Below, piece by piece: positions 34,577 through 44,418 of a stretch of DNA of 64,000 nt. A program made the position numbers and the translations under genes. The stretch's first letter is position 1. Every line of letters begins with the position of its first letter. The notes under the pieces were generated by a model, which ran no database searches, was not told the origin of the DNA, and was given only the letters and a program-made list of their open reading frames with translations. The DNA is from Deuterostichococcus epilithicus (taxonomy: Eukaryota; Chlorophyta; Trebouxiophyceae; Prasiolales; Stichococcaceae): contig JAVTLE010000015.1 of NCBI GenBank assembly GCA_033439295.1, positions 2,542,001 through 2,606,000 of the forward strand, in the 5' to 3' direction.

Positions 34577-37500
34577 ATGAACGTCAGCCTTGTGTCTGCA
34601 GCGGCGACAGCAGCAGAGGCGCCGCCGGCACCGCCGGCGGCACAGCTGCCGGACACATCCAGGTGGACGGGCGCTGCAATTCGGGAGGCATTTCTGGCTT
34701 TCTACGAGCAGCGCGGTCATGCGCGGCTGCCCTCCGCCAGCCTGGTGCCGGACGACCCCACGGTCATGCTGACCATCGCGGGCATGCTGCAGTTCAAGCC
34801 CATCTTCCTGGGCAAGGTGCGAGAGGCGTGCATCAGCTCGCGGGGATCTCCAGTACAACCGCGAGCCGGCATTCCCGTCTGAGCTGCAAGCTTTACCTCC
34901 TCGTAGTGGCCCTACAATGTGCACAGCAGGACGCCAGCCAGAACGTAGCTTGAAGGCTGCAGCTCCATCTATAACTGGGGTACTTGACTCGACAGTGTTG
35001 CCGAGCGGTGTCTGGCGCCGCCTGCAGGAGGCGCGTCGGCACCCGTGCGCGACGACCACGCAGAAGTGTGTGCGCACGAACGATATCGAGAACGTCGGCG
35101 TTACGGTGAGCCGCACCATAGAGTGTCCCACCAAAGCAGCGAACGTGTTGTGACTGTGCCGCCGCGCCTCTGCCGCCGCGCCTCTGCCAGAGAGCCTCTC
35201 CACTGCTGGTGCTCGTCAAGCACCAACGTGGACAGCGCCGGACACGGCTTCACAGCTGCCAAGCTGCACTGCGCACAGATGGCACCATACCTTCATCATG
35301 CAAGATGCTGGACGGCTTGCCCAGCAGTGCATATCCATGCGGCCGCCTTCACGTTTTGATACCATGCGCAGGTGTACCACCACGCTTTCTTTGAGATGCA
35401 GGACAACCGGATGGAAAGATCTTTCCAGTCTGGCTGGCTGCGGCTTCTTGAATTCTGGACCTGAATATGCGCAGGCGAGGCACCACACGTTCTTCGAGAT
35501 GCTGGGAAACTTCTCCTTCGGCGACTACTTCAAGAAAGAGGCCATCCAGTACGCCTGGGAACTGGCCACGCAGGTGAGGGAGGGTGGATGCACATGCAAG
35601 GCTGGAGAGTGCGAACATCCCATCATTCAAGTGCTGACGACTTGGCAATGCTTGACTTCCTGAGGGGCAAGGCATTGCAAGCAACACCCATTGCGGCTTC
35701 CTGGGCGGCAGCTGGATGCATGACATGGCGTTGGATCACTGCCCGAGACAATATGCGCAAAAGCGCTGCGAGCCAGACACCACGTTCGAACCATTGCATG
35801 CCAAAGCGCACCTGGGTGAGCGTGCACGAGGACAGCCCGGAATCGCACGGCCTGCAGCGCGTGCGGGGTAGATGCGACCAAATGATCGAAACTTTCTTTT
35901 GTTGCCGCTGCGTGGACGGCCTGGCGCCATGTAGACGGCCTGGCGCCAGAGCGTAGCTGGGTGAGCGCGTCTTTGAGGGCGGTGAGGAGGCCTATGGCTG
36001 ACATGCCGGCCCAAAACCATGCATCCGCTTTCCCGTGCGGCAGGTGTATGGTTTGGCGCCAGAGCGCATCTGGGTGAGCGTTTACGAGGATGACGAGGAG
36101 GCGTTCGGCCTGTGGCGCGACTCCATTGGGGTGCCGCCAGCACGCATCCAGCGCCTTGGCGCAGCGGACAACTTCTGGGAGGCGGGGCCCACTGGTGAGG
36201 AGTCAGATCCGGTGCCGGATGGTAGCGGACATGCGTGCGTGGCCGGCTGCTGACTGGCATCGGCTCCGTCGGGAGAATGCGCAACATTGGCTCACCTGTG
36301 CGCCGGCCCATGCTGCCCGTGCACGGAGCTGAATGGTGATGCAGAGCCGGACGCACCGGCACTAAACCGCACGTTTTCCATGAGCGCTCGACAAGCTGCC
36401 ATTGCTTGGCCGCCAGCCTTTGTGCATGTCTCCGCAGGCCCCTGCGGCCCGTGCACTGAGCTGTACTACGACTTCAGGCCCGAAGCGCCGGCGGAGGGCG
36501 CCAGCGTCGAGGACGACTCCCGCTTCATCGAGTTCTACAACCTGGTGGGTCAGGCGGCACATGAACACGGCAACCTTGCTCGCCTTGAGGACACAAAGAC
36601 CATGTCCATGTGCCGCCGCAGGGCTAGCAGGGGTCGTTGATGCAAGCTGCATGCACATCTCAGGGTGTGCGGCCCGGGCGCATTTGGAGCAAGGCAGCAT
36701 CTGTGCTAGCGCACCAGCAGGCTGATGCACACATGCGTTGCAAGTGTTTGGTAAGGGAAAATCCAGGCGACGGATGGCAGCTGAGGTCTGTGCAGCATGC
36801 GTGATGGCCCGGCAGAATGATCCACGTGCGATGTGCTGTGATCAGGGGTGTTCATGGAGGGCTTAGGGCAACAAGGGTTTAGGGCATGGAAGCGGCGGAC
36901 GGCGGTCTCTCTGCCTCCTGCTGCTCGGACACTGCCTGGCCGGCACCCCAAAGCGACATTCGCTCGCCTTGCCCTGCACAGGTGTTCATGGAGAGCAACA
37001 AGGCGGCGGACGGCAGCCTGACGCCGCTGGCGTCTCGCAACATCGACACCGGCCTGGGCCTCGAGCGGATGGCGCAGATCCTGCAGGCAAGTGCTTCTGA
37101 GCTCTTGCTCGCATTGATGCTGCCACTGCACTGCTGTCGCAGCATCACTGCAGGGGCACAGGCGATATCATGTGGGCGAAACTTGGTCGGGGGGGTTCCA
37201 GTCGTGCCAGCAGGCGGATGTGTTTCAGCCCGCCTGCATGCGCCTGCGTGCCGTCGGCAGCCTCCGCTGCAGCCTCACAACCTGCCTCTGCCGAACAGCC
37301 AATCACACACTGCAAACGCTAATCAGAGACCGGTATCAGCCCAGACTCATAACCATGCCTGGGTTACGGCATCCCCAGACGAGCGCCGGGGTCTGCGCTG
37401 CAGGGCGTCAGCAACAACTACGACACGGACCTCATCCTGCCCATCGTGCTTGAGGCGGCGCGACTCGCGGGACTGGACTACCATGGGGCGGACCCGCACA

Positions 37501-43500: not shown

Positions 43501-44418
43501 CGCCGGCGAGGCGACGCAGCTCGACAACGGCGCGAGGCTGCTGGCGACAGCCGTGGAGGGGCTGGACGCCAAGAGCCTGCAGGCAAGCGCCGCCGCAAAC
43601 TCTGGTTCTGCAGGTCTCAGGGCTGCGAGGCGCCTGTGGACAGCTAGGCGGCCAGGGCGCACGGGTTGCTGCGGCCACCCGCGGCGCTGCGGTTCCCGGG
43701 TTGCGGGCCCGTCAAGAGAGGGGCCCGATCTTTTAGGATGGCGCACCTTCCAGGCCATTGCTGACTTACATGCGCTTTCAGGCCTCTCTGTGAACGGGCT
43801 GGTGGGCTCCTCCTCTGGCCTCGCCTTGGCGACCTGCCAGTGGCCAGCAAGTGCGGCAGCGGTGCGAGCAGTCCGTGCGTTTGCTGTGCGAGCAGCGATG
43901 ACCGGCAGCTTGTCGCCATGCACAGGAAGCCGCCGCCAAGCTGCAGGGAGAGCTGGGCGACCCGTCAGCGGTGTTCCTCGCGACGTCGCCTGCCGCCGGC
44001 AAAGTGGCCATGGCGGTGGCGGCCAGCCCCGCGGCCGTCAAGGCGGGTCTGAACGCCGGCAGGCTGATTGGCAGCCTGGCCAAGCTGTGCGGCGGCGGCG
44101 GCGGCCGGCCGAACTTGGCGCAGGTGGAAATTGGGCTTCAGTGCAAGCAGTCTGCAGGCTGCTCACTGCAGGATATCCCAATCCTTTGCAGCGTTACTGC
44201 AGCGCCACAGCTGCCGCATCTTCGTCCAGCTGCCTGTTGATAGGGCATCTCCTTCAGAAGTAACGCTTCTTGCTTTGCTGCCCAGCCTGTGTGTGTTGAC
44301 CCGCAGCGCTTTGTTCACACTGTAGGCGGGCGGCAAGAATCCAGAGGCCATACCAGAGGCGGTGACGGCGGCGCAGACAGCACTGCAGGAGGCTCTGGCC
44401 GAATGCAGCTTGGACTGA
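34577..44418 (+). CDS. Alanyl-tRNA synthetase, bacterial/organellar type
   Basis: Charges tRNA-Ala with alanine. Eighteen exons join in phase to 2775 nt (924 aa): 34577-34816, 35028-35105, 35475-35573, 36044-36194, 36438-36544, 36982-37086, 37404-37631, 37992-38180, 38559-38762, 39403-39550, 39853-40070, 40505-40678, 41510-41650, 42216-42341, 42677-42788, 43419-43582, 43926-44123 and 44326-44418. In order: class II catalytic core ([87 protein letters not shown]), beta-barrel ([15 protein letters not shown]), editing-domain zinc motifs ([10 protein letters not shown] and ELCGGTHV) and the C-Ala domain with [16 protein letters not shown]. The sequence is cyanobacterial-like with about 30 extra N-terminal residues, so I infer plastid and/or mitochondrial targeting. 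Donors at 37087, 42342 and 43583 are GC. Introns contain many degraded copies of adjacent exons. All key motifs appear intact. Confidence 0.95.
35364..35406 (+). repeat. Echo of AlaRS exon 3
   Basis: After an AG this reads [12 protein letters not shown], against [12 protein letters not shown] at the start of the real exon (35475). The atgcgcag acceptor context is copied as well. It lies in the intron just upstream of the real exon, in frame. Confidence 0.75.
35801..36002 (+). repeat. Two echoes of AlaRS exon 4
   Basis: 35801-35860 reads [20 protein letters not shown], against [20 protein letters not shown] in the real exon (36044-36194). 35934-36002 is a second copy (ggcgccagagcg, gctgggtgagcg) with stops and small indels. 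Both lie upstream of the real exon in the same orientation. Confidence 0.75.
36299..36360 (+). repeat. Echo of AlaRS exon 5
   Basis: Reads [20 protein letters not shown], against [19 protein letters not shown] in the real exon (36438-36544). Same orientation, one copy length upstream. Confidence 0.75.
36847..36917 (+). repeat. Echo of AlaRS exon 6, interrupted by telomere-like DNA
   Basis: ggtgttcatggagg at 36847 and cggcggacggcggtctc near 36892 match the real exon start at 36982 (gtgttcatggagag, then cggcggacggcagcctg). Between the two halves lies an insertion containing gcttagggc and gggtttagggc, which are telomere-type units. Confidence 0.7.
38422..38522 (+). repeat. Echo of the start of AlaRS exon 9
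   Basis: aggcgggcgcagcgcagcac at 38447 and aaggccttcccgctgacggc near 38495 match the real exon (38559-38762: aggcgggcgccgcgcagcac, aaggccttcctgctgtacg). The cgcaggg acceptor-like context is also present. Confidence 0.7.
38811..38876 (+). repeat. Echo of the end of AlaRS exon 9
   Basis: gtcgacgccgccggcttcaa at 38812 and aagaacgctgacaag match the real exon end at 38695-38762 (gtcgacaccgccggcttcga, aaggacgccgccaag). This copy lies downstream of the real exon. Confidence 0.7.
40775..41094 (+). repeat. Echoes of AlaRS exon 12 end
   Basis: The best copy, 41056-41094, reads [13 protein letters not shown], against [13 protein letters not shown] in the real exon (ends 40678). Weaker copies are near 40795-40840 (cctcgactttcgcctgc) and 40930-40980 (cacctcgagcctgccgtgcg). 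All lie downstream of the real exon. Confidence 0.65.
41701..41755 (+). repeat. Echo of AlaRS exon 13 end
   Basis: Reads [18 protein letters not shown], against [19 protein letters not shown] in the real exon (41510-41650). Downstream copy, in frame. Confidence 0.75.
42081..42160 (+). repeat. Echo of AlaRS exon 14
   Basis: After ctgcag this reads [20 protein letters not shown], against [20 protein letters not shown] in the real exon (42216-42341). It is still in frame and still shows the editing-domain Cys and His. A weaker earlier copy may lie near 41988-42020. Confidence 0.75.
42545..42585 (+). repeat. Echo of AlaRS exon 15 start
   Basis: After gcgcag this reads [12 protein letters not shown], against [12 protein letters not shown] at the start of the real exon (42677). 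It is followed directly by degenerate telomere-like gtatagggtccagggttcag. Confidence 0.75.
43130..43290 (+). repeat. Two echoes of AlaRS exon 16 start
   Basis: 43248-43285 reads [13 protein letters not shown] and 43135-43170 reads [12 protein letters not shown], against [13 protein letters not shown] at the start of the real exon (43419). Both are upstream, in the same orientation, with a cag in front. Confidence 0.75.

Follow-up and report, generated by a model that had tools for sequence, protein, structure and literature searches.

Known routes to intron sequence

Tandem genomic duplication is a recognized source of introns under the Rogers model, reviewed in PMC3443670: as set out there, a short direct duplication within a gene copies an exonic AGGT segment, the duplicated segment supplies the splice sites of a new intron, and the protein is left unchanged. 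We analysed a stretch of 64,000 nucleotides from the green alga Deuterostichococcus epilithicus (contig JAVTLE010000015.1, positions 2,542,001 to 2,606,000; hereafter the window), which lies on the contig that we number C13 in a genome of 46.8 Mb and 21 contigs, and which contains a bacterial-type alanyl-tRNA synthetase (AlaRS) gene of 18 exons at 34602-44418 on the + strand. The genome yields 39 matches to chlorophyll a/b-binding proteins, the best of which reads as a light-harvesting protein, in keeping with a green alga; of 14 control genomes, one, a cyanobacterium, gave matches too. The introns of this gene hold decayed, same-strand copies of the edges of the neighbouring exons, here called echoes. 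The events proposed below would share with the Rogers model the short direct intragenic duplication, the splice sites drawn from the duplicated segment and the unchanged protein, but an existing splice site would be spanned and an intron lengthened, instead of a new one being made.

Three other described systems are close. In the potato RdRp intron, as presented in PMC4974935, a duplicated intron/exon structure likewise brings along a branch site, a pyrimidine tract and a 3' splice site; this is a single recent case that added an intron plus exonic sequence, whereas the copies considered here are many and old, and the mRNA model is not enlarged. Repair of staggered breaks makes small tandem duplications in the system of PMC8355091, where breaks with overhangs of about 43-54 bp were induced in cultured or other cells of mammals; this known route to such duplications may be analogous. 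Introners, according to PMC9860276, show intron sequence spreading episodically, in green algae among others, but they are mutually alike across genes, whereas an echo resembles its own neighbouring exon (in the survey below, random other exons matched in only 4/263 introns).

Our reading, to which we give roughly two chances in three, is that a past episode of tandem duplications of about 100-150 bp across splice sites lengthened existing introns. The class of mechanism is already known; what is new, and was not found in the literature searched, is the scale, the narrow spacing, the anchoring at splice edges and the fact that the episode would have ended. That search returned no account of fixed-spacing exon echoes in algal introns, a weak negative, as subscription papers were mostly outside its coverage.

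Exon echoes in the AlaRS introns

AlaRS introns were compared with their adjacent exons against 300 dinucleotide shuffles per intron, and with non-adjacent exons from a fixed set of 9 of the 18, using 60 shuffles each. The z score exceeded 4 in 11 of 34 adjacent comparisons, which came from 9 of the 17 introns (2, 3, 4, 8, 9, 11, 12, 13 and 15), but in only 1 of 136 comparisons with non-adjacent exons, and in none of 34 when the introns were reverse-complemented. In a scan of the whole window that used no gene model, 16 direct matches reached 30/40 or better when the offset was 40-1539, while none did so at control offsets of 5000-6499 or of 10000-11499. That the echoes stem from chance, composition or codon bias, or that the gene model was misread, has almost no probability: GC-rich coding sequence does yield some false matches, as seen in the 4/263 introns that at z>=5 resemble another exon drawn at random, but this explanation is refuted by the shuffle, reverse-complement, non-adjacent and offset controls, together with the full open reading frame of the gene.

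Echoes in these introns had been described in an earlier note made from the sequence alone. That observation is confirmed, with a likeness well above that of dinucleotide-shuffled introns. Its interpretation is partly supported, the local, same-strand duplication of exon segments being in keeping with the 11/34 adjacent matches and 0/34 reverse-complement ones. Of the echoes that it listed, those next to exons 3, 4, 5, 9, 12, 13, 14 and 16 are supported and those of exons 6 and 15 weak, while an echo of exon 11 was absent from its list.

All echoes lie on the + strand, and d denotes the spacing in bp between an echo and its source. Copies of exon heads are found at 35372..35407 for exon 3 (d 103, z 6.9, AG kept), 36306..36360 for exon 5 (d 132, z 10.2), 38441..38509 for exon 9 (d 125, z 17.3), 41394..41452 for exon 13 (d 116, z 10.4, with a weaker second copy at 41313-41368) and 42087..42148 for exon 14 (d 129, z 14.5, 50/65). 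The head of exon 4 is echoed twice, farther away at 35800..35861 (d 258, z 13.6) and nearer at 35941..35998 (d 113, 44/58), as is that of exon 16, at 43138..43163 (d 287, 21/26) and 43254..43287 (d 165, z 6.8). Copies of exon tails occupy 38812..38876 for exon 9 (d 115, z 12.8), 40166..40213 for exon 11 (d 143, z 5.4), 41049..41090 for exon 12 (d 426, z 6.5, with a weaker second copy at 40765-40842) and 41703..41743 for exon 13 (d 111, z 6.7). The two weak head echoes are those of exon 6, at 36881..36927 (z 3.2), and of exon 15, at 42549..42589 (d 128, z 2.7, above the 98th percentile of shuffles). Several copies per intron, also claimed earlier, are clear in introns 3 (d 113 and 258) and 15 (d 165 and 287), and only suggestive in introns 2, 12 and 13.

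Echoes elsewhere in the genome

The survey covered the window and 21 loci of 10 kb, of which one (L009) surrounds another AlaRS gene, on contig C5, and 20 were at positions preset before inspection. Exons were called with a purpose-built finder, first trained from AlaRS and afterwards on the exons that it had itself predicted, which placed both edges correctly for 13 of the 18 AlaRS exons, so that rates elsewhere are rough. At a threshold of z>=5, 45 echoes were detected in 39 of the 278 introns tested, compared with one in the reverse-complement control and matches in 4 of 263 introns to a random other exon. Echo-bearing introns amounted to 9/15 in AlaRS, 5/45 in the other genes of the window, 4/15 in L009 and 21/203 at the preset loci; echoes were seen in 12 of the 19 preset loci that yielded introns, the 20th having yielded none. 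The earlier note had treated echoes as a feature of AlaRS; they also occur elsewhere in the genome, though AlaRS is enriched (9/15 versus 30/263 introns elsewhere, Fisher p 2.3e-5), a comparison to be read knowing that the gene had been singled out for its echoes and that its exons are better placed than others.

Edges, spacing and orientation

An echo holds about 55 nt of exon edge, not the entire exon. Most (34/45) start within 8 nt of the edge, where 4.2 would be expected under free placement in the exon, and 18 of the 26 acceptor-side echoes have an AG no more than 4 nt from their edge, compared with 44% at random intron sites. The spacing is narrow, with d at 95-150 in 30/45 echoes, against 6.8 expected under free placement in the intron (maximum of 2000 draws, 16); the remaining spacings are 231-275 in six echoes, 151-230 in four, above 275 in three and below 95 in two. 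Taken modulo 3, the 45 spacings divide as 18/15/12, which lends little weight to the remark that copies are often in the same frame. The source edge is the head of the downstream exon in 32 echoes and the tail of the upstream exon in 13 (p 0.007). This 32:13 acceptor-to-donor bias may show which competing splice site the alga's spliceosome tolerates.

Self-BLAST, run without a gene model, gave no direct pair closer than d 95, but 22 in the range 95-150. Within 1 kb it listed 62 direct pairs, protein repeats among them, and 7 inverted ones, and the 37 pairs closer than 300 bp comprised 29 exon-noncoding, 4 exon-exon (about 60% identity), 3 mixed and 1 noncoding-only. Triplets with additive spacing occur in intron 3 of the window gene, in L018 and in L022, and alignments span the full spacing or more at window position 29475 (length 118, d 119) and at L016 position 4648 (length 177, d 124).

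Some individual pairs deserve mention. The sole noncoding-noncoding near direct pair is at L025 3213-3311 (d 201, 72% identical), and a direct repeat at window 61796-61903 (d 219, 73% over 109 columns) is mostly noncoding by the exon calls. At L022, the segments 2127-2157 and 2247-2277 (d 120) agree at 31/31 positions, exon sequence having a copy in noncoding DNA, with flanks that are unlike on both sides; this is the only near pair of at least 90% identity in the BLAST lists.

Growth and gain of introns

When an intron is gained by duplication across a single AG/GT site, its length equals the repeat spacing. Of the 45 echoes, only one had a spacing within 15 nt of its intron's length, and that match, in L020, is C-rich and doubtful; echo-bearing introns exceeded the spacing by a median of 360 nt. 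These unequal lengths and the remainder of 360 nt indicate that the introns predate the echoes. Introns with an echo are also longer, with a median of 506 nt (n 39) versus 282 nt for those without (n 239; p 1.7e-7). The earlier note had written of intron gain or growth; growth is supported by these medians, while gain, its main inference, in which an exonic AG/GT segment is duplicated in tandem, is very improbable for these echoes. The AG often retained at echo edges would suit such a gain, and the type of event is similar, but the echoes sit within longer introns and the spacing departs from intron length by more than 15 nt in 44/45 cases, on which ground gain was rejected.

State and age of the copies

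For the 39 echoes with z>=6, differences between echo and exon at codon positions 1, 2 and 3 are 0.196, 0.194 and 0.274. This pattern is that of an echo drifting freely while the exon adds silent changes, and the echoes bear no codon constraint, in agreement with the earlier proposal that one copy was kept and the other has been decaying as intron. The same differences speak against coding echoes and the mutually exclusive exons that had also been suggested, both of which were rejected; for the latter, it also counts that about 55 nt of an edge was copied and not an exon.

Echoes might nonetheless be retained as functional decoys or alternative exons, serving regulated or unproductive splicing. 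Acceptors at echo edges outscore random intronic AGs (p 0.0005; 14/18 above the 70th percentile) and have a raised pyrimidine content (0.58 versus 0.52, p 0.008). Against this, codon constraint is lacking, 8 of 26 echoes have no AG within 4 nt, and what remains is explained if these features came with the acceptor that was copied; such a role, judged from sequence, is improbable. We read the AGs at echo edges as inherited from the original acceptor, some use of them being possible.

Young copies are few. Mean echo identity is 0.770, reaching at least 0.83 in 7/45 echoes and at least 0.90 in 1/45. Age was approached by simulating duplications across an acceptor and passing them through the same detection, with results that depend on the assumed exon and indel rates. 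Under a steady process, 24-27% of pairs kept at least 90% identity, while an episode that ended at t 0.15 substitutions/site left 3% at 0.90 or more and 14-17% at 0.83 or more, with a mean of 0.76-0.77. The observed 2%, 16% and 0.770 match the ended episode and not the steady process, which suggests an episode largely over; by this simulation, duplication would have largely stopped about 0.15 substitutions per site ago.

A past episode of duplication across splice sites

Under the reading that we favour, segments of about 100-150 bp would have been duplicated in tandem at many places of the genome in the past. For a segment lying across an exon edge, the outer copy (the acceptor farther downstream or the donor farther upstream) would be the one used in splicing; the protein would stay unchanged, and the duplication would have survived for that reason. 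The inner exon edge, turned into intron, would then decay neutrally, and through repeated events the copies would come to number two or three, placed at successive multiples of the unit spacing. Pre-existing introns would thereby have grown, none being newly made. The event itself as a tandem duplication, the use of the outer splice site and the neutrality are what we infer; on the repair chemistry we can only conjecture, for example that staggered breaks were filled in and joined.

Duplication of whole units predicts intronic halves that are still alike. Intron flanks by the edge are more alike than permuted pairs on the acceptor side (p 0.0004, n 19) and on the donor side (p 0.019, n 8), while a smaller initial test, of 14 pairs, did not reach significance (p 0.10); likeness stands above permutation, but below simulation. 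Several points weigh against our reading. The pooled profile has no ungapped flank likeness farther than some 18 nt out from the edge, and the flank-score excess is 1.75, versus about 3.4 to 12 simulated at t 0.25-0.35. Near pairs confined to introns are scarce, 1/37 at d<300 (2 counting window 61796); for every 17 edge pairs, the simulation gave 4 to 11 of them when t was 0.08-0.25, and 0 to 1 when it was 0.3-0.4. The acceptor-side excess of echoes (32:13) is unpredicted by a plain duplication model, and the survey outside AlaRS depends on an exon finder trained on that gene, of which it recovered 13/18 exons. Part of the shortfall against simulation could come from a greater mean age, from large indels or from ancestral introns that were shorter.

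These results lead to another possibility, in which only the exon edge and at most some 20 nt of intron, about 60-90 nt altogether, were copied to a place about 100-150 bp away, and not a whole unit. Such edge-specific copying fits the pooled likeness that stops at about 18 nt, the flank excess below simulation, the few intron-only pairs and the 31/31 copy with unlike flanks at L022 2127-2157 (d 120), but it leaves the narrow spacing and the additive triplets unexplained, and at least two pairs align across the full spacing or more; we consider it unlikely, and bolder than our reading. We know of no mechanism for it. In its broadest form, quite unlikely in our view, a process sensing splice edges, for example RNA-templated or acting through splicing-linked breaks, would in one past episode have preferentially copied exon edges, without the adjoining intron, to a fixed 100-150 bp away, building much of the intron mass.

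Gene conversion between tandem copies, keeping echo and exon alike, could account for exon parts that seem younger than intron parts. It would require clustered mismatches, but mismatches are unclustered along the alignments of the 39 echoes (combined p 0.87-0.99), and this explanation, extremely improbable, was rejected.

The AlaRS gene model and a long repeat

The 18 AlaRS exons splice into a single open frame of 917 codons with its stop at 44418, and the product of 917 aa scores 911.5 bits against TIGR00344 (alaS; cut-off 457.05), with PF01411 matches to the exons as well; the 18 exons were thus placeable, as the earlier note had stated. The model is complete except for the start codon, exon 1 being modelled from the acceptor that precedes 34602. 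Exons 1-6 are at 34602-34816, 35028-35105, 35475-35573, 36044-36194, 36438-36544 and 36982-37086, exons 7-12 at 37404-37631, 37992-38180, 38559-38762, 39403-39550, 39853-40070 and 40505-40678, and exons 13-18 at 41510-41656, 42216-42341, 42677-42788, 43419-43582, 43926-44123 and 44326-44418, all on the + strand. In this model 3 of the 17 introns have GC donors, after exons 6, 14 and 16 (37087, 42342 and 43583), and the putative donor after exon 14 (42342) reads GCGCGC, which is poor.

Apart from the echoes, L021 contains a direct repeat between 1-1781 and 7342 onward, about 96% identical over 1.8 kb, plus a 0.5-kb piece, which may be a mobile element or a segmental copy.

Implications

The genome paper of Chlorella variabilis NC64A, by Blanc et al. 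in 2010, reportedly remarked on intron repeats that overlap coding sequence. If so, the echoes would be a relative of that observation; that paper is not known to us to have analysed spacing, edge or age.

The origin of intron sequence is mostly guessed because its source has been erased; here, the selected exon serves as a reference by which each event can be dated and sized. If our reading is true, about one intron in ten of those surveyed would still show its origin, and more must have decayed below detection, while the spacing and the age profile would give direct access to the repair event and to the reasons why introns in this alga lengthen in episodes.

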